This document shows, piece by piece, positions 9,672-46,516 of a stretch of 50,815 nt of DNA. The notes beneath the pieces were generated by a model. That model saw only the letters and a program-made list of their open reading frames with translations. It did not search any database and was not told the origin of the DNA. This DNA comes from Planctomycetaceae bacterium (GTDB taxonomy: Bacteria; Planctomycetota; Planctomycetia; Planctomycetales; Planctomycetaceae), in assembly GCA_020426325.1 (NCBI GenBank), contig JAGQQG010000043.1, positions 1-50,815 of the forward strand. Reading direction: 5' to 3'. Every line of letters begins with the position of its first letter. The stretch's first letter is position 1. Position numbers and translations under genes: made by a program.

Positions 9672-10580
9672 CTACGAGTCATTCACGACGGTGCAGGGGG
9701 TCTTGCGGGAGATGCGTTTCAGCAAACCGGTCAGGACTTTGCCGGGGCCGATCTCATAGAACTCGTCGATCCCCGCATCGAGCATGGCACGAATGGAGTC
9801 TTCCCAGCGAACAGGACTGATGACCTGCCGCACCAGAATATCCTTCAACGCAGCGGGATCGCTGTGCGTCTGAGCATCGACATTCGAGTAGACGGGAATC
9901 TCTGGCGACTTCATTTCCACTGAAGCAAGTGCTTCGGCGAGGCGTTGATCGGCAGGCTCCATGATCGATGTATGGAAAGCACCTGCCACCGCCAGTGGGA
10001 CGGCTCGTCCGCCTGCTGCGTCCGCCAGTTCGGCTGCTTGTTCACAGGCAGCGTTCACCCCGGAGACAACCGTATTGCCGGGACACAGGTAATTCGCTAT
10101 CTGCAGGATTCCAGCACTGCTCGCCTGCTGACAGATCTCCTCGACTTTGGGGATGTCAAGCAGGAGCATGCTGACCATCCCCGAGGGTGTCGCGTCGGCC
10201 GCGTCCTGCATGGCCTGCCCGCGTTGCTGGACAACCCGCAATCCTTCCTCGAACGACATCGCTCCTGAGAAGACGAGTGCGGTGTACTCTCCCAGGCTGA
10301 GCCCCGCTGCCATCTCACAGGCCAGCACGACATCCGGTGAGTCTGTCCTCAGTTTTTCCAGAGCGGCCAGACTCGCGACAAAGATCGCCGGCTGGCTGAT
10401 GACGGTTGAATCCAATTCCTCGGCCGGTCCCTCGAAGCACAACTTCGCGAGGTCGTAACCGAGGATTTCGTTTGCCTGCTCGAAGAGACGTGCGGCTGCC
10501 GGGTATCGTTCGGCAATCGCCTTGCCCATGCCAACATGCTGGGCTCCCTGACCGGGGAAGAGAAACGCAATACGGCTCAT
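9672..10580 (-). CDS. fabD: Malonyl-CoA:ACP transacylase
   Basis: A 302-aa cytoplasmic enzyme, normal length for FabD, which transfers malonyl from CoA to acyl carrier protein for fatty acid elongation. Visible motifs are FPGQGAQHVGMGK at 8-20, the nucleophile motif GLSLGEYTAL with Ser near 95, a conserved Arg region after QQRGQAM, and the catalytic His in AGAFHTSIMEPA near 200. GLS replaces the commoner GHS at the nucleophile elbow, a known natural variant. It follows plsX with only two bases between (10581-10582) and belongs to the rpmF-plsX-fabD operon, the classical lipid-synthesis arrangement of bacteria. Confidence 0.95.
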   Translation of the reverse strand: MSRIAFLFPGQGAQHVGMGKAIAERYPAAARLFEQANEILGYDLAKLCFEGPAEELDSTVISQPAIFVASLAALEKLRTDSPDVVLACEMAAGLSLGEYTALVFSGAMSFEEGLRVVQQRGQAMQDAADATPSGMVSMLLLDIPKVEEICQQASSAGILQIANYLCPGNTVVSGVNAACEQAAELADAAGGRAVPLAVAGAFHTSIMEPADQRLAEALASVEMKSPEIPVYSNVDAQTHSDPAALKDILVRQVISPVRWEDSIRAMLDAGIDEFYEIGPGKVLTGLLKRISRKTPCTVVNDS

Positions 10581-10582
10581 GC

Positions 10583-11584
10583 TCAGCCTCCTGCGTGGGC
10601 TGCCAGTTGCTCAACAATTCGGTCGTTCACGTGGCGATCCTTCAAACGCATGGCACCGCTCAATGCGTTCGTCATCGAACGGGCATCACTGGACCCGTGA
10701 CAGATGAGACAGATGCCGTCGATTCCCAACAATGGAGCCCCGCCGACTTCGTTGTATTCGAACTTCTTACTAACTTCGACGAACGCGGCTTTGGCGAGTT
10801 GCTGCTCCTCTTTCAGCGCACCGATGACAGCCCCGGCGAGCATTTTCATCATCATGGAGGCGATGCCTTCGCTCACCTTGAGAACGACATTCCCGACAAA
10901 GCCTTCACAGATCAGGACATCAGCCTCACCCTCATACAGGCCGCGTCCCTCGACGTTGCCCACATAAACATCTTTGAGACTGCTGTTCATCAGGAACTGA
11001 TGCGTTTCCCGGGCAAGTTCATTGCCTTTGCCCTCTTCAGTGCCGATGTTCATCAGGCCGACGCGGGGCTTCTCGATCCCCAGCATCTTCTGTGCATAAA
11101 TCGAGCCCATCACCCCGTACTGATAGAGGTGCTCGGTTCTCGCCCCCGGATTGGCGCCGACATCCATCAGGACTGAACCACCAGTCAGGGTCGGCAGCAC
11201 CACCGCAATCCCAGGACGCTTAACCCCTTTGAGGAACAGTCTCGTCCTCAGACCGGCAGCGACCACGGCGCCCGTGTTACCAGCGGAGACGACGGCATCG
11301 ACTTCCTTCGTAGCCATCAGCTTCCAACAGACAGCGATCGAACAGTTCGGTTTCTGGCGGAGAGCATCCGTCGGCTTTTCGTGCATGCCGACTGCTCCGT
11401 CCGCAGGAGTTACGATCAGACGATCGCCTGCATAACCACGATTGCTAAGCAGTTCCTTGAGGACGGGCTCGTCACCCACCAGCAGAACTTCCAGCTCCGG
11501 AAACGCTTGAACAGCAGCGATCGCACCGTCGATGTTGATCTCCGGAGCGTCGTCACCTCCCATCGCGTCGAGCGCGATTCGCAT
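10583..11584 (-). CDS. plsX: Phosphate acyltransferase PlsX
   Basis: A 333-aa protein of normal PlsX length. It makes acyl-phosphate from acyl-ACP for phospholipid synthesis. The N-terminus MRIALDAMGGDDAPEINIDG is diagnostic. Further on are DALRQKPNCSIAV, VSAGNTGAVVAAGL, KRPGIAVVLPT, LMNIGTEEGKGNELARETH and CEGFVGNVVLKVSEG, all family signatures. The enzyme is a soluble, peripherally membrane-associated dimer. The gene sits between rpmF and fabD on the minus strand, six bases after the rpmF stop. The ATG at 11584 is unambiguous. Confidence 0.96.
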   Translation of the reverse strand: MRIALDAMGGDDAPEINIDGAIAAVQAFPELEVLLVGDEPVLKELLSNRGYAGDRLIVTPADGAVGMHEKPTDALRQKPNCSIAVCWKLMATKEVDAVVSAGNTGAVVAAGLRTRLFLKGVKRPGIAVVLPTLTGGSVLMDVGANPGARTEHLYQYGVMGSIYAQKMLGIEKPRVGLMNIGTEEGKGNELARETHQFLMNSSLKDVYVGNVEGRGLYEGEADVLICEGFVGNVVLKVSEGIASMMMKMLAGAVIGALKEEQQLAKAAFVEVSKKFEYNEVGGAPLLGIDGICLICHGSSDARSMTNALSGAMRLKDRHVNDRIVEQLAAHAGG

Positions 11585-22776: not shown

Positions 22777-24210
22777 ATGACACGTGTGACTGCTGGATGC
22801 ATCGCCCTGACTGCTCTGTTCATCACATTCGTCGCACAGCTTTCGGCTCAACCAGCCAGCGGTGCAGCCGATCGACATGCAGAACTGAGAAGGCAGGCAG
22901 ACACCGCTTACCGCCAGCGAGATTTCGCACGCACGGTCGAATTAACGTCGAACGTGCTCACGGAGAATCCACAGGACGCAGTCGCTCTGTACCTGCGCGG
23001 GAGTGCTCGGGTTGAAATGGGGATCACCCAAAACAACTCCAACTTCATCCGTGAGGGGATCGAGGATGCCCGGAAGGCGATCTCAGCCGACGGAGCCAAG
23101 CGACCCGACTTTTATCTGCCGTACCTTTATGGCATGTCTCATCTGACCGCCATGGAAGGAGACCGATCACACGCGGAAATGGCAGTCAAAGTCGCGACCG
23201 ACATCGCCAATCGCGATGACATTCTGAACAAGGCAAAGAGTAATCTTCTGTATCAGAAAGCCTTAGCTTACTCAAAACTCGAAGACTACCCGCAGGCTGT
23301 CGAGGCGCTGCGCGAGACACTCAGGCTGGATGCAAACCACCTCGCAGGACACCTCGCTCTTGCCGATGTCCTGGCTCGCAAAGGCGATATCAAAGACGCC
23401 GATGCGGCCTTCACCAAGGCTGTGGAGCTGTTTCCGGAGAATGCGCTCGTCTTCAACAATCGGGGTATGTTCTATCAGACACAAAGCCGAAACGCAGATG
23501 CCATCGCAGACTTTTCGAAGGCCATCGAACTGGATGGTAATCAGCTTCAGTCGTACCTCAACCGCGGATTCACTCGTCTGAATACGGGTGATCATGCGGG
23601 AGCAGAAGCGGATTTCAACCGAGCGATCGAGCTTAGTCCTGACAATGCTCCGGCTTACGCACTTCGTGCAACGGCTGAGCTCTTGCAGCACAAAACCAAC
23701 GAGGCCTTACATGACTATCTGAAGGTGATTGAACTCCGCCCTTCTTATCCACCTGCACGGGCGGACATCGCCTTTGCCTACTTCTTTGCCGGACATTATG
23801 AGACAGCCGGACAGGCATTTGAACAGGCACTTATCCTCGCACCGGAATCGAAGTATCTGGTCCCCTGGCGATACGCAGCCATGTCGCTGGCCGGCCAGCA
23901 GGCTGCTGCCAATCAGGCCTATGCCGAGATCGCAAACAAGGCTCCCGAAATGCGGGACTGGTTCGACACTTTGACATTGTTCTTCATGGAGAAGATCGAC
24001 GAACGTGAGCTTCTCACCTCGATCGATTCCAAAGATGCAGCCTTACGGGACGCCCAGCTCTGCGAGGCCTACTACTTCGTCGGTCTCAAACTTCAACAGC
24101 AGGGACAGGGAGACCCGTCTCGCTACTTCCGCAGAGCGCTCCAGGCACAAGCCAAACAACTGTCGGCCTATCGGGCAGCTCAACTCGCACTGGAAAGCAT
24201 GCCGCAGTAA
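22777..24210 (+). CDS. Secreted tetratricopeptide-repeat protein
   Basis: A 477-aa protein with a signal peptide (IALTALFITFVAQLSAQPASG, about residues 8-28 in total). It then has about eight TPR units, clear around AVALYLRGSARVEMG, LVFNNRGMFYQTQSR, AIADFSKAIELDGNQ, LNRGFTRLNTGDHAGAEADF and APAYALRATAELLQHK. The start ATG has an excellent AAGGAAG site upstream. TPR proteins are scaffolds for protein assemblies in the periplasm; no catalytic motif is present. It ends 16 bp from the stop of the convergent ketosynthase gene. Some C-terminal repeats (from LTLFFMEKID) are degenerate. Confidence 0.88.
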   Translation: MTRVTAGCIALTALFITFVAQLSAQPASGAADRHAELRRQADTAYRQRDFARTVELTSNVLTENPQDAVALYLRGSARVEMGITQNNSNFIREGIEDARKAISADGAKRPDFYLPYLYGMSHLTAMEGDRSHAEMAVKVATDIANRDDILNKAKSNLLYQKALAYSKLEDYPQAVEALRETLRLDANHLAGHLALADVLARKGDIKDADAAFTKAVELFPENALVFNNRGMFYQTQSRNADAIADFSKAIELDGNQLQSYLNRGFTRLNTGDHAGAEADFNRAIELSPDNAPAYALRATAELLQHKTNEALHDYLKVIELRPSYPPARADIAFAYFFAGHYETAGQAFEQALILAPESKYLVPWRYAAMSLAGQQAAANQAYAEIANKAPEMRDWFDTLTLFFMEKIDERELLTSIDSKDAALRDAQLCEAYYFVGLKLQQQGQGDPSRYFRRALQAQAKQLSAYRAAQLALESMPQ

Positions 24211-24226
24211 CGATGTTGAACCCTCG

Positions 24227-25531
24227 CTAATCGCACTGCACCACGATCGCACTCGCCTGACCGAGGCGAGTAAAACTCAAATTCAACACGTTGCGAAGCG
24301 TCGTGGCTTGAGGTTGGCCTCGCACAATGTTGAGATTGCAGGCCGGGTCAGGATTGTCGCAGTGGATTGTGGGAGGGATCAGCCCTTCCTGAAGTGCGAG
24401 CAGCGAACCTGCCAACTCCAGGTTCCCCCCTGCAGCTGCGGAATTCCCCATCGCCCCCTTGAGAGCCGTCACCGGAATTTCGGCCCCTCGTGAGCCGAAC
24501 ACGTCATGGATCGCCTGTGCTTCTGCAAGGTCAGCGTCCACAGCTCCAAGCCCGTGTGCATTGATATGGCCGATGTCTTCAGGTGTCAGTTCGGATGTAC
24601 GCAGAGCGGCTCGGATCGCATTGGCGATCGCCCCCCTTTGATTCCCCTTCACGCTTGAAGAGCCACCCCCCGTAAGGTATCCGAGAATCTTCGCGCCCCG
24701 TGCCTTGGCATGTTCTTCCGTTTCCAGAATGAACGTGCATGAGCCTTCTGCGACCACTTCGCCGTTGCGTTCGATATCGAACGGACGACTGCTCGCAGCT
24801 GGGTCTTCAGGCCGATATCCCAACTCCTCCCAGATGGCTGCATGAATAACCTTGAATTCGTGAAGCCGAGCACCGGTGGCTCCTGCGACCATCATGTCCG
24901 CTGCACCACGATGAATCACGTTCAGGGCTTCAATCAAAGCGAGGTTGCTGGACGCTTCGTCCTGAGTGATCGAGTTGCTTGGCCCTCTTGCGTCAACAAA
25001 AATTGCAATATGACAGGCCGGCATGTTGGGAAGATACTTGAGCAACCACAGCGGCTCCATCTTGGTGATGCCGTTCTTGGCCCACTTGCTGAAGGTGAAG
25101 TTGCCAGCCTCGTCCAGACAGTTCCAGCAGGGATCGTTAAGCTGGGTCGGAGGGCTGAACATGAGGTTCGCACCAAAATCAATCCCCATGCGGTCGTGAT
25201 CAATCGCACCGAGATCAAGACCGGCATCCTCGACAGCCATCATCGCTGAGGAGGTCCCCATCTGAATATCGCGGCACATCACTTTGATATTCTTCCGCTG
25301 ATTCTTGGGGATCACCTCTTTTGCAAACTTCTCATCAAAGTCCGAAACCTCACCTCCGACGAATCCGGGAGACAATGCCCGTTCGCCATGAAACTGGTGT
25401 TCGACCGGACCAATGCCGTTCTTACCGGTAGAAAGGTTCGTCCAGAACACTTCCCGGCCGACTCCGATCGGACTGATGACCCCGACACCCGTGATGGCCA
25501 CGCGCGGTCGAGAAGATTGACGCTGACTCAT
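24227..25531 (-). CDS. Beta-ketoacyl synthase homologue lacking the catalytic cysteine
   Basis: A 434-aa thiolase-fold protein of FabF length. The fold signatures are present: VAITGVGVISPIG at the N-terminus, DARGPSNSI, PFDIERNGEVVAEG and the C-terminal TTLRNVLNLSFTRLGQASA. The active site differs. Where FabF has TACTSG, this protein has QDEASS, placing Glu (about 192) at the Cys position. The first His is kept (INAHGLGAVDAD, about 326). The Lys region is KGAMGNSAAAGG, with Asn (about 363) for the second His. Condensing activity is therefore unlikely; a chain-length-factor, decarboxylase or scaffold role is possible. ATG 25531 is preferred; TTG 25561 is possible. Confidence 0.85.
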   Translation of the reverse strand: MSQRQSSRPRVAITGVGVISPIGVGREVFWTNLSTGKNGIGPVEHQFHGERALSPGFVGGEVSDFDEKFAKEVIPKNQRKNIKVMCRDIQMGTSSAMMAVEDAGLDLGAIDHDRMGIDFGANLMFSPPTQLNDPCWNCLDEAGNFTFSKWAKNGITKMEPLWLLKYLPNMPACHIAIFVDARGPSNSITQDEASSNLALIEALNVIHRGAADMMVAGATGARLHEFKVIHAAIWEELGYRPEDPAASSRPFDIERNGEVVAEGSCTFILETEEHAKARGAKILGYLTGGGSSSVKGNQRGAIANAIRAALRTSELTPEDIGHINAHGLGAVDADLAEAQAIHDVFGSRGAEIPVTALKGAMGNSAAAGGNLELAGSLLALQEGLIPPTIHCDNPDPACNLNIVRGQPQATTLRNVLNLSFTRLGQASAIVVQCD

Positions 25532-25692
25532 ACTGCCCAGAGTGCCTCTATCATGGGACAACGTTCAACGTGCTTCGTCACGCTTCCTTGGGCAGTCTGC
25601 TGAATAAGCAGCCCGACATCAGAAGCCACACGAGCCGTCATTCCGACGTCCTGCGGTGTTCCCAGCCTGTTAACGCAAATTGATTCATCCAT
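25528..25692 (-). CDS. Possible small protein translationally coupled to the ketosynthase homologue
   Basis: A 54-aa frame from ATG 25692 whose TGA overlaps the ketosynthase ATG (ATGA at 25528-25531), the usual sign of coupling. The peptide runs MDESICVNRLGTPQDVG to MIEALWAV. Its middle (GMTARVASDVGLLIQQTAQG) faintly resembles an HPr-type helix, but the His of HPr (G-L-H-A-R) is Thr here and the protein is too short. No ribosome-binding site is visible. It could be chance, or the remnant of a small carrier gene. Confidence 0.35.
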   Translation of the reverse strand: MDESICVNRLGTPQDVGMTARVASDVGLLIQQTAQGSVTKHVERCPMIEALWAV

Positions 25693-25758: not shown

Positions 25759-26841
25759 CTAGGGATACCTGTTGTGAACCGCACCGTCAACGGCACCACG
25801 AAGTTCGGCGACAACCTCTGCCATGATGTCGACTGCCCGAATCACATCATCACGTCCCAAATTGAGGTGCGTACAAGCACGTAACCTCTGCCGTCCCAGA
25901 GTGTACAGACGAACCCTCCGTTCGTGCAGACGGTCCTGAAGCACTTGGGATCTTCCATATTCCGGGTCAAGCTCAAAGAAGACCAGATTTGTCTCGACAC
26001 CTTCGAGATCAACGGATAGTCCGTCGATTTGGGCGATTCCTTCCGCGAGCTGCCGAGCGTGAGTATGGTCCTCTGCCAGCCGTTCGATGTGATGGTCGAG
26101 TGCGAACAGGGCAGCCCCGGCAATGATGCCCGACTGTCTTAACGCTCCACCAAACAGCTTTCGCGCCCGCCGGGCCCGGTGAATCGTCTCATGATCCCCG
26201 ACCAGGACGGACCCCATCGGGCATCCCAGTCCCTTCGAGAAGCAGATCGAAACTGTATCCACACAACGTCCAACGTCTGCGGGAGAGTAACCACGCACGA
26301 CACAGGCATTGAACAACCGCGCTCCGTCGAGATGGACCTTCAGTCCGTGCTTGTGTGCCCAGGTTCCCACCCGTTCCAACTGGTCGAGCGGGTACGTCCG
26401 TCCGCCTCCCACGTTTGTCGAATTCTCCAACGAGAGCAGACGGGTCGGACTAAAGTGTTCGTCCGGCTCGCGGAGGGCTTCTTCCAGCTGTTCAAGGTCA
26501 AGCCGCCCGCTGTCCCCCTGAATCGTCCTCACACTGACTCCGGATAGCGCGGCTGGAGCACCAGCCTCAAAGCTACCGATGTGCGATGTCGACTCGATCA
26601 GCAACTCGTCACCCGGAGTGCAGTGGGACCAGACCGCCATCTGATTCGATTGCGTCCCGGAACACCCCAGGACAGCAGCCTCCTTGCCGAACATCTCCGC
26701 CATTCGGGCTTCGAGCCGGTTGACGGTTGGGTCTTCGCCCATCACATCATCGCCCAACTCAGCTGACATCATGGCTTCCAGCATGGCCGGCGTCGGCAGA
26801 GTGACGGTGTCACTGCGGAGATCGATATAGCTTTGTGTCAT
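25759..26841 (-). CDS. ltaE: Low-specificity L-threonine aldolase
   Basis: A 360-aa PLP enzyme of the aspartate aminotransferase fold type I. It splits L-threonine and allo-threonine to glycine and acetaldehyde. Signatures are IDLRSDTVTLPTPAMLEAM at the N-terminus, GDDVMGEDPTVNRLEARMAE, GCSGTQSNQMAV, LSLENSTNVGGGRTYPL, GLKVHLDGARLFNA and the PLP-lysine motif CFSKGLGCPMGSVL near residue 200. Length is normal. The gene stands alone on the minus strand. The C-terminal HLNLGRDDVIRAVDIM is also typical. Related phenylserine aldolases cannot be excluded, so the symbol is by family similarity. Confidence 0.92.
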   Translation of the reverse strand: MTQSYIDLRSDTVTLPTPAMLEAMMSAELGDDVMGEDPTVNRLEARMAEMFGKEAAVLGCSGTQSNQMAVWSHCTPGDELLIESTSHIGSFEAGAPAALSGVSVRTIQGDSGRLDLEQLEEALREPDEHFSPTRLLSLENSTNVGGGRTYPLDQLERVGTWAHKHGLKVHLDGARLFNACVVRGYSPADVGRCVDTVSICFSKGLGCPMGSVLVGDHETIHRARRARKLFGGALRQSGIIAGAALFALDHHIERLAEDHTHARQLAEGIAQIDGLSVDLEGVETNLVFFELDPEYGRSQVLQDRLHERRVRLYTLGRQRLRACTHLNLGRDDVIRAVDIMAEVVAELRGAVDGAVHNRYP

Positions 26842-45517: not shown

Positions 45518-46516
45518 ATGTCCAAACTCATCACTCTCCCCTTCGAGCGACCGATCGCTGAGTTGGAAGACCAGCTCGAGAAGCTCGAAGCACAACCCAA
45601 TCCCACGCCGGCGACCAAGGACGCCATCCGTCAGATGCGCACTCAGGTCAACCGTATGAAGCGGGAGATCTACGAGAATCTCAACCCGTGGGAGATTGTG
45701 CAGGTCGCCCGCCATCAGCAGCGACCACAGACACTCGACTATCTCGAACTCGTGTTCGATGAGTTCGTGGAACTTCACGGAGACAAAGCGTACGGCGATG
45801 ACCGAGCCATCCTCACCGGGTTCGCCAAGATCGATGACCGGAAAGTGATGTTCGTCGGCCATCAGAAGGGAAGGAACCTTCAGGAGCGGACTGAACACAA
45901 TTACGGCATGGCTCATCCGGAAGGATACCGCAAAGCACTCGCCAAAATGCAGATTGCGGCCAAGTTCAACCTGCCCATCATCTGCTTCATCGACACAGCC
46001 GGCGCGTTCCCCGGCATTGAAGCCGAGGAGCGGGGACAGGCATATCAGATCGCATACAACCTTCGCGAGATGTCACGCATCCGCACGCCGATCATCTGTG
46101 TCATCATCGGGGAAGGGGGGTCCGGCGGGGCACTGGGCATCGGCATCGGCGATCACGTCGCCATGCTCCAGTTCTCGTACTACTCCGTCATCAGCCCGGA
46201 GGGTTGTGCCGGCATCCTCTGGAAACATCAGAAGTTCGCAGACAAAGCGGCTCAGGCCCTCCGCTTCACCGCGAAGGATCTGCTGGAGTTCGGCATCATC
46301 GACGAGGTCATTCCGGAACCGCTGGGGGGAGCACACCGCAACCATCACCACATGGCGATGGGGCTCAAAGGGTATCTCACGCAAACACTTCGCGAACTCT
46401 CGAAGCTGCCGGCCGACCAGTTGCTCGACCACCGCTACGATCGCTTTCGGAGGATCGGCGTCCTGGAAGACCTGGCCACCACTGGGGGAGAGGAAGGCCA
46501 GCCACTCGCCGGCTGA
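45518..46516 (+). CDS. accA: Acetyl-CoA carboxylase carboxyltransferase subunit alpha
   Basis: A 332-aa enzyme subunit, normal AccA length. With AccD it transfers the carboxyl from carboxybiotin to acetyl-CoA, making malonyl-CoA for fatty acids. Signatures are LPFERPIAELEDQLEKLE, VQVARHQQRPQTLDYLELVF, GDRAILTGFAKID-like DDRAILTGFAKI, GHQKGRNLQERTEHNYGMAH, ICFIDTAGAFPGIEAEERGQ, GEGGSGGALGIGIGD and YSVISPEGCAGILW. ATG 45518 is the only sensible start. It stands without accD nearby; fabD and plsX are on the opposite strand 34 kb away. All catalytic segments are intact. Confidence 0.97.
   Translation: MSKLITLPFERPIAELEDQLEKLEAQPNPTPATKDAIRQMRTQVNRMKREIYENLNPWEIVQVARHQQRPQTLDYLELVFDEFVELHGDKAYGDDRAILTGFAKIDDRKVMFVGHQKGRNLQERTEHNYGMAHPEGYRKALAKMQIAAKFNLPIICFIDTAGAFPGIEAEERGQAYQIAYNLREMSRIRTPIICVIIGEGGSGGALGIGIGDHVAMLQFSYYSVISPEGCAGILWKHQKFADKAAQALRFTAKDLLEFGIIDEVIPEPLGGAHRNHHHMAMGLKGYLTQTLRELSKLPADQLLDHRYDRFRRIGVLEDLATTGGEEGQPLAG

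Follow-up and report, generated by a model that had tools for sequence, protein, structure and literature searches.

The window analyzed here, a stretch of 50,815 nucleotides from Planctomycetaceae bacterium (assembly GCA_020426325.1, contig JAGQQG010000043.1), carries on its (-) strand, at 24227..25531, a gene for a 434-residue protein of FabF fold that lacks the catalytic Cys, and that we call KSE. These coordinates count the open reading frame from an ATG; the mechanical call starts further out, at an in-frame TTG at 25561. A preliminary description of this DNA had recognized the FabF fold from the letters, and three kinds of evidence bear this out: Pfam ketosynthase (KS) domains are found (ketoacyl-synt, 112.2 bits; Ketoacyl-synt_C, 79.5 bits), the AlphaFold2 model, built with 59 aligned sequences, has a mean pLDDT of 91.5 and a pTM of 0.91, and the top ten PDB matches of this model are all FabFs, with TM-scores of 0.86 to 0.87 on the query, as expected of a KS fold. 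By score, nevertheless, KSE is not a FabF: the NCBIfam fabF model (TIGR03150, cut-off 493.75) gives it 260.9 bits, compared with 624.5 bits for the FabF encoded on contig C329 of the same genome.

The Cys-His-His site of FabF reads Glu-His-Asn in KSE, which is not the active site of a FabF. All codons concerned lie on the (-) strand. Glu192 (GAA, 24956..24958) is aligned with FabF Cys163 and Asn363 (AAT, 24443..24445) with His340, both codons having also been read by eye; His326 (24554..24556) corresponds to His303 and Lys358 (24458..24460) to Lys335, both kept. The replacement of the catalytic Cys by Glu and of the second His by Asn, with retention of the first His, had been noticed in the preliminary description, and the alignment to FabF confirms it. 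That description also envisaged a conserved Cys one or two positions away that would reconstitute the site. The nearest Cys is Cys173, 19 residues from Glu192; none lies within two positions, and since the conserved Cys86 and Cys173 sit elsewhere, we reject the idea of a site rebuilt around a displaced Cys.

Convergent with KSE is a gene for a TPR-repeat protein (22777..24210, (+) strand), which is found near KSE in many relatives too. Upstream, on the same strand as KSE, lies a gene for a GntG-family PLP-dependent aldolase (25759-26841, (-) strand; NCBIfam 407 bits, cut-off 230), and no sign of a function shared by these two proteins was seen. The absence of an adjacent KS, ACP or FabG gene had been pointed out beforehand; indeed there is no other KS on the contig, but fatty acid synthesis is represented in the window, by fabD (9672..10580, (-) strand; TIGR00128, 309.6 bits, cut-off 260.9) and plsX (10583..11584, (-) strand; TIGR00182, 308 bits, cut-off 243.4), at 13.6 and 12.6 kb from KSE, respectively, and, further off, by accA (45518..46516, (+) strand; TIGR00513, 433.2 bits, cut-off 319.3). 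The gene order plsX-fabD-acpP-fabF is split in this genome, acpP-fabF being on contig C329, and it is there, next to acpP, that the suggested search for a KS elsewhere in the genome located the FabF mentioned above. The fabH of this genome is ordinary (TIGR00747, 360.2 bits, cut-off 292.1), and KSE as a substitute for a missing FabH can therefore be dismissed.

A search of 40 relatives detected orthologues at 72 to 86% identity in four same-genus genomes, and at 48 to 56% in 17 of 20 other genera of the family; no full-length match at 48 to 56% was found in G009, G014 and G023, the last of which has fragments at 53 to 55%. A wider scan, which covered one genome for each GTDB species and was made with the alignment of the KSE family and with the patterns LPNMPACH and [ML][ED]PLW[LM]L[KR]Y, matched 474 stretches, of which 466 are relatives; the best 80 of these were used. 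To judge by their titles, which give Planctomycetota, a group within it or a planctomycete genus, 79 of the 80 belong to this phylum, and the other is named only 'bacterium'. The active-site columns played no part in this retrieval. Among the 81 sequences formed by the best 80 of 466 relatives and the window, the Cys163 column holds 65 Glu, 16 Asp and no Cys (64 Glu and 16 Asp in the best 80 alone), the Lys335 column is Lys throughout (81/81), and the His340 column is Asn in 79 and Ser in 2. The His303 column is looser, with 64 His, 7 Phe, 6 Asn, 2 Gln and 2 Leu.

The question arises as to whether a protein deprived of its catalytic residues is simply the product of a decaying gene, or of a sequencing error. 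No internal stop is present over the matched span in any of the best 80 of 466 relatives, all of which have Glu or Asp at the site, so that the frameshift evoked in the preliminary description does not apply. When a longer span is counted, G001, G020 and G028 show one TGA each; that of G001 falls at residue 4 of this longer span and precedes the start adopted here; both G001 (L084) and G020 (L124) belong to the best-80 set, in which they are stop-free over the matched span. Within the genus, dN/dS values (NG86) range from 0.035 to 0.122 for 10 pairs, at saturated dS (1.3 to 5.0), and the YN00 method gives 0.046 for one same-genus pair. To judge from these sequences, purifying selection acts on the gene within its genus. 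Given the open, acidic relatives and the low dN/dS, we reject the frameshift or pseudogene explanation, which appears extremely improbable.

Other regions of the protein were compared between the 81 KSEs (best 80 of 466 relatives and window) and 30 full-length FabFs encoded at the same loci. Gaps counted, 26 positions are conserved to 95% or more in each of the two sets but with different letters: nine of these fall in 162-177, another four in 181-189, and an insertion at 124-131 contains three. Part of this signal stems from the circular segment used for retrieval, and the conservation of the PLWLL/PLWLLKYLPNMPACHI segment (residues 160-175 of KSE, placed by the alignments at 25007..25054, (-) strand) is circular within the best-80 set because the scan patterns contained parts of that motif. 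Beyond this set, however, Trp162 is Trp in 67 and Cys173 is Cys in 63 of 68 Cys-less KS sequences. Counted along the alignment, Trp162 falls on Phe133 of E. coli FabF, which we take to lie along the acyl tunnel, close to the dimer interface. Against an argument built on this correspondence, all 30 same-locus FabFs have Met, not Phe, in the Trp162 column. The Ala162 column of FabF holds 47 Asp, 22 Ala, 8 Asn, 3 Glu and 1 Ser in the 81 KSEs.

The GFGG loop is invariant in the same-locus FabFs (30/30). According to PMC7138838, this loop carries the gating residue Phe400 in E. coli FabF, and the backbone amides of Phe400 and Cys163 form the oxyanion hole. It is replaced in KSE by TRLG (residues 421-424; 24260..24271, (-) strand), and in the 81 KSEs (best 80 and window) by Thr at G399 (78/81), most often Arg at F400 (47/81), a variable residue, and Gly at G402 (79/81). 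The same source describes Lys65, Arg68 and Lys69 of E. coli FabF as contacting ACP. A basic stretch of KSE, KNQRK (residues 76-80; 25292..25306, (-) strand), is aligned with these residues of ACP-docking region 1, and Lys or Arg occupies the three columns in 72, 81 and 81 of the 81 KSEs. An ACP docking face on KSE is therefore plausible from the alignment. The same-locus FabFs have a gap (30/30), mixed residues, and Lys or Arg (30/30) in these columns, so that the basic patch is not common to the two sets site by site.

Gene order in the relatives provides a clue to the function. Counting fabF at 60% identity or above and on the same strand, and considering the 71 loci (from the best 80 of 466 relatives) with at least 1.5 kb upstream, we found fabF under 600 bp upstream of KSE at 23 loci and under 3 kb upstream at 31; it was absent within 3 kb upstream in 40 of the 71, some contigs ending sooner. 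Anywhere in the locus, fabF is present in 36 of the 80. KSE directly follows fabF in several genera; the full order plsX-fabD-acpP-fabF-KSE occurs in G006, G013, G024, G017 and G011, the KSE of G011 having Gly at the Cys163 site, and the TPR gene, nusA and infB lie downstream at some loci. No fabF was seen in the stretches of 4 to 20 kb read around KSE in the four same-genus genomes; for this reason, and because of the 40 loci just mentioned, the pairing with fabF is not obligate in gene order. More generally, all 23 KS pairs counted within 5 kb consist of a Cys-less and a Cys-bearing KS on one strand, with gaps of at most 727 bp in 22 of them; this count omits one pair of the present genome, on C388, and three Cys-Cys tandems (G052, G080, G101). 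Other Cys-less members lie 38 to 727 bp from Cys-bearing KSs of different KS branches. In G029, such a pair adjoins FabG, which scores 304.1 bits (cut-off 297.75), and a FabZ-like protein that reaches 96.6 bits, below the cut-off of 113. That KSE is often encoded right after a working FabF, and that its acidic site is conserved, indicates that it is probably a helper subunit, not a broken gene.

The present genome (G000) encodes further KSs with an altered site. An acidic-site paralogue on C380 (L061:9314-10588) has Glu and no KS within 5 kb. Another, on C25 (L060:12874-14118), has Asp and lies 38 bp from a Cys-bearing KS; no solved structure close to it was found at E 1e-40. On C388 (L064:13909-16463), a Cys-bearing KS accompanies a Cys-less one that has Gly at the site, Phe for His340 and a very long branch.

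How the Cys-less proteins relate to one another was examined with 107 KS sequences from stretches of 40 genomes, of which three shorter than 330 residues were dropped (fragments of a FabF, of a KSE and of the C388 protein) and 104 aligned. Ordinary KSs are under-sampled in this set because the regions were centered on the better KSE matches. Cys is missing from 68 of the 104 rows, which have Glu (43), Asp (22), Gly, Ser or Ala (one each) instead, that is, 65 acidic residues. In a quick unrooted tree, a branch with SH-aLRT 100 separates the 68 Cys-less sequences from the 36 Cys-bearing ones. Within the 68, Lys335 is Lys in 61, His303 is His in 56, and His340 is Asn in 47 and His in 12. A co-variation between the Glu and the Lys was not seen: the seven rows without Lys335 stay acidic, and three non-acidic rows keep the Lys. 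A second tree of 75 rows, including three annotated polyketide KS/chain-length factor (CLF) pairs, again grouped the Cys-less rows (36 in this set; bootstrap 90, SH-aLRT 99). The CLFs lie off the KSE branch in the best tree, yet a constraint uniting KSE rows and CLFs in one clade is not rejected (p-AU 0.166).

A phylum-wide search of 119 genomes led to 30 loci that were read, 19 of them with a PLWLL-type KS. The site residue in these 19 is Glu in 11 (window included), Asp in 2, Cys in 3, Asn in 2 and Ser in 1. Each of the three Cys-bearing ones (G052, G080, G101) is in tandem with another Cys-bearing KS. PLWLL-type KSs with Cys-His-His intact, in tandem with a second Cys-bearing KS, were observed at L210, L211, L212 and L246. 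Proteins of this kind possibly represent the state that preceded the loss of the Cys. The simplest reading of the sequences, from trees that are unrooted, would be that the Cys was lost from a Cys-bearing PLWLL-type ancestor.

The change from Cys to Glu or Asp is itself already in print. Rattray et al. (2009; PMC2649909, Table 2) list Rhodopirellula baltica NP_866153 with Glu163, His298, Lys328 and Asn333, and NP_865682 with Asp163, and they proposed a different substrate and function for these FabF paralogues. As printed, the four residues of NP_866153 are the same as in KSE. Unlike our reading of KSE, the passages of PMC2649909 that we examined draw no operon link and no subunit role for these paralogues. 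The statement of the preliminary description that a Glu is different holds against the three annotated CLFs, which have Gln, Gln and Gly, but Glu is not unique, in view of R. baltica.

Among known systems, FabF (KAS II) shares fold and length with KSE, and differs by Cys163, His340 and GFGG, all replaced in KSE. KSQ decarboxylases have Gln at the Cys site and both His, neither of which is the case in KSE. A functional parallel may be the CLF. Like the three annotated CLFs, KSE is a Cys-less KS homologue in which the second His is replaced and the Lys kept, and in some relatives, though not in the window, the gene of a family member adjoins that of a Cys-bearing KS. However, KSE has Glu or Asp where two CLFs have Gln and one Gly, it usually retains the first His, which is Asp in the three CLFs, and its family is found in fatty acid synthesis operons and off the CLF branch in the best tree (with the p-AU of 0.166 given above). 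In KS-CLF heterodimers, a shared channel helps to set product length (PMC7949117), and in Iga11-Iga12 the contacts with ACP are mainly made by the CLF (PMC8358021). AmcF-AmcG (KS-CYF) of cispentacin biosynthesis also combines a KS and a non-catalytic partner as a heterodimer (PMC10698177); AmcG is described there as devoid of functional motifs and of some secondary structures of a CLF, whereas KSE has a full-length KS fold.

A further parallel comes from anammox bacteria. The non-canonical FabF Kuste3606 has Val, Asn, Lys and Glu at the four sites (PMC2649909, Table 2), and PMC4790861 names kuste3605 as FabF and, together with it, 3606 as non-canonical FabF. As printed, it resembles KSE in being a Cys-less KS numbered beside a canonical FabF. 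At L237-L240 (G126, G144, G108, G087) we observed, behind a Cys-bearing KS, a Cys-less one with V/I-N-K-E, as in the pattern given for Kuste3606; these proteins have no PLWLL motif, and we therefore regard them as a parallel to the KSE family, not as a part of it. Two metagenome bins titled Candidatus Kuenenia stuttgartiensis (L156, L160) hold a KSE relative at 48% identity, and these titles may be misassigned, since the anammox-pattern proteins are V-N-K-E.

What could a conserved, Cys-less KS do? Having lost the Cys, the GFGG oxyanion and gating loop and His340, KSE would not be expected to condense or to decarboxylate in the way usual for KSs. The fold, Lys335, the basic stretch and a heavily rebuilt segment in the presumed dimer and tunnel region are left. 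Because catalytic residues are lost and family members are repeatedly placed beside Cys-bearing KSs, we consider a partner subunit as the most likely function, at about even chances. Several points temper this. Weighing most against it are the absence of fabF from the stretches read around KSE in its own genus and from the 3 kb upstream at 40 of the 71 loci, together with the retention of His303 in most members. The PLWLL motif is no proof of a beta-type role, as 8 of the 36 Cys-bearing KSs have it; the tandem is independent of the loss of the Cys, as three genomes show a Cys-bearing PLWLL-type KS in tandem with a Cys-bearing KS; the His303 kept in 64 of 81 sequences (best 80 and window) would exceed what a pure scaffold needs; and the gene neighborhood also fits a separate pathway enzyme. 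Such an enzyme, a stand-alone homodimer in which Glu192, His326 and Lys358 would perform another acid-base reaction on acyl-ACP (hydrolysis, isomerization or similar), is a serious if unlikely alternative. The strictness of Glu/Asp and of Lys (each 81/81, best 80 and window), beyond what a dead pocket seems to need, the frequent His303 and the lack of a fabF in the stretches read around KSE in its own genus all argue for it; yet His303 is replaced in 17 of the 81, the oxyanion loop is gone, and repeated pairing with Cys-bearing KSs is not something it predicts.

Glu is nearly isosteric with Gln, and KSs with a Cys-to-Gln change decarboxylate malonyl-ACP, so that KSE might also be a KSQ-like decarboxylase making acetyl-ACP starters, all the more as His is found at position 340 in 12 of the 68 members of the wider Cys-less clade (for example EHKH or DHKH in G005, G017 and G024). 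In the KSE subfamily, however, that residue is Asn or Ser in 81 of 81 (best 80 and window), and both active-site His are indispensable for decarboxylation (PMC2649909). Moreover, with an ordinary fabH in the genome, no starter supply is missing. With His340 gone and fabH present, this function is less likely than a partner subunit, and we regard it as improbable; the decarboxylase offered among the possibilities of the preliminary description is disfavored, for the KSE subfamily and the KSQ type, by the loss of His340 and GFGG. The chances are slimmer still that KSE has no KS partner at all and binds acyl-ACP in a regulatory or storage role: the basic stretch at the ACP-docking positions of E. 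coli FabF, the lost catalytic loop and the same fabF-free stretches in the genus would suit such a protein, but it leaves the repeated tandem with Cys-bearing KSs unexplained, and likewise the very conserved Lys. The dimer partner that the preliminary description had also offered, next to a scaffold for acyl groups, is favored by the gene order in relatives, which is not a proof.

We thus propose, with a confidence that does not go beyond one in two, that KSE, conserved and non-condensing, serves in fatty acid synthesis as the partner (beta-type) subunit of a Cys-bearing FabF-type KS, and by analogy we hold it a balanced possibility that it works like a polyketide CLF. KSE and FabF would form a heterodimer, as KS and CLF do, in which the FabF subunit would carry out acyl-enzyme formation and condensation and KSE would offer an ACP docking face. 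The rebuilt PLWLLKYLPNMPACHI segment with Trp162 might shape the tunnel, and with it the chain length or the choice of substrate. Glu192, which may form a salt bridge with Lys358 and is joined in this protein by Asp191, would keep acyl chains out of the dead pocket. Extended to the phylum, the proposal is more tentative, and we would rather bet against it than for it: in Planctomycetota, part of primary fatty acid synthesis may be performed by heterodimeric KSs, composed of a Cys-bearing FabF-type subunit and a dead Glu/Asp twin that would determine chain length or which substrate is used.

Type II polyketide synthases offer well-known examples of partner subunits that are dead enzymes; to our knowledge, none is known in ordinary bacterial fatty acid synthesis. 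In the open-access literature, in which subscription papers are mostly not included, we found no mention of the operon position behind fabF, of a single Cys-less clade or of a subunit role, and recognized no report of a Glu-type CLF or of a planctomycete KS heterodimer, the anammox work being closest. Nor did the literature examined contain a tested function for the non-canonical FabF paralogues of Rhodopirellula or anammox bacteria. Planctomycetes are among the 14 phyla with KS-CLF hits in a 2023 catalogue (PMC10132072).

If the phylum-wide reading is true, primary metabolism would have a chain-length factor of its own, with an origin perhaps separate from that of its polyketide counterparts. 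A role as partner subunits would then be suggested for the non-canonical FabFs of anammox (ladderane) clusters as well. A conserved dead partner in a major phylum would change the view of how fatty acid chain length is set there, and the non-canonical FabF paralogues described in 2009 from Rhodopirellula and from anammox bacteria could be put to a concrete test.
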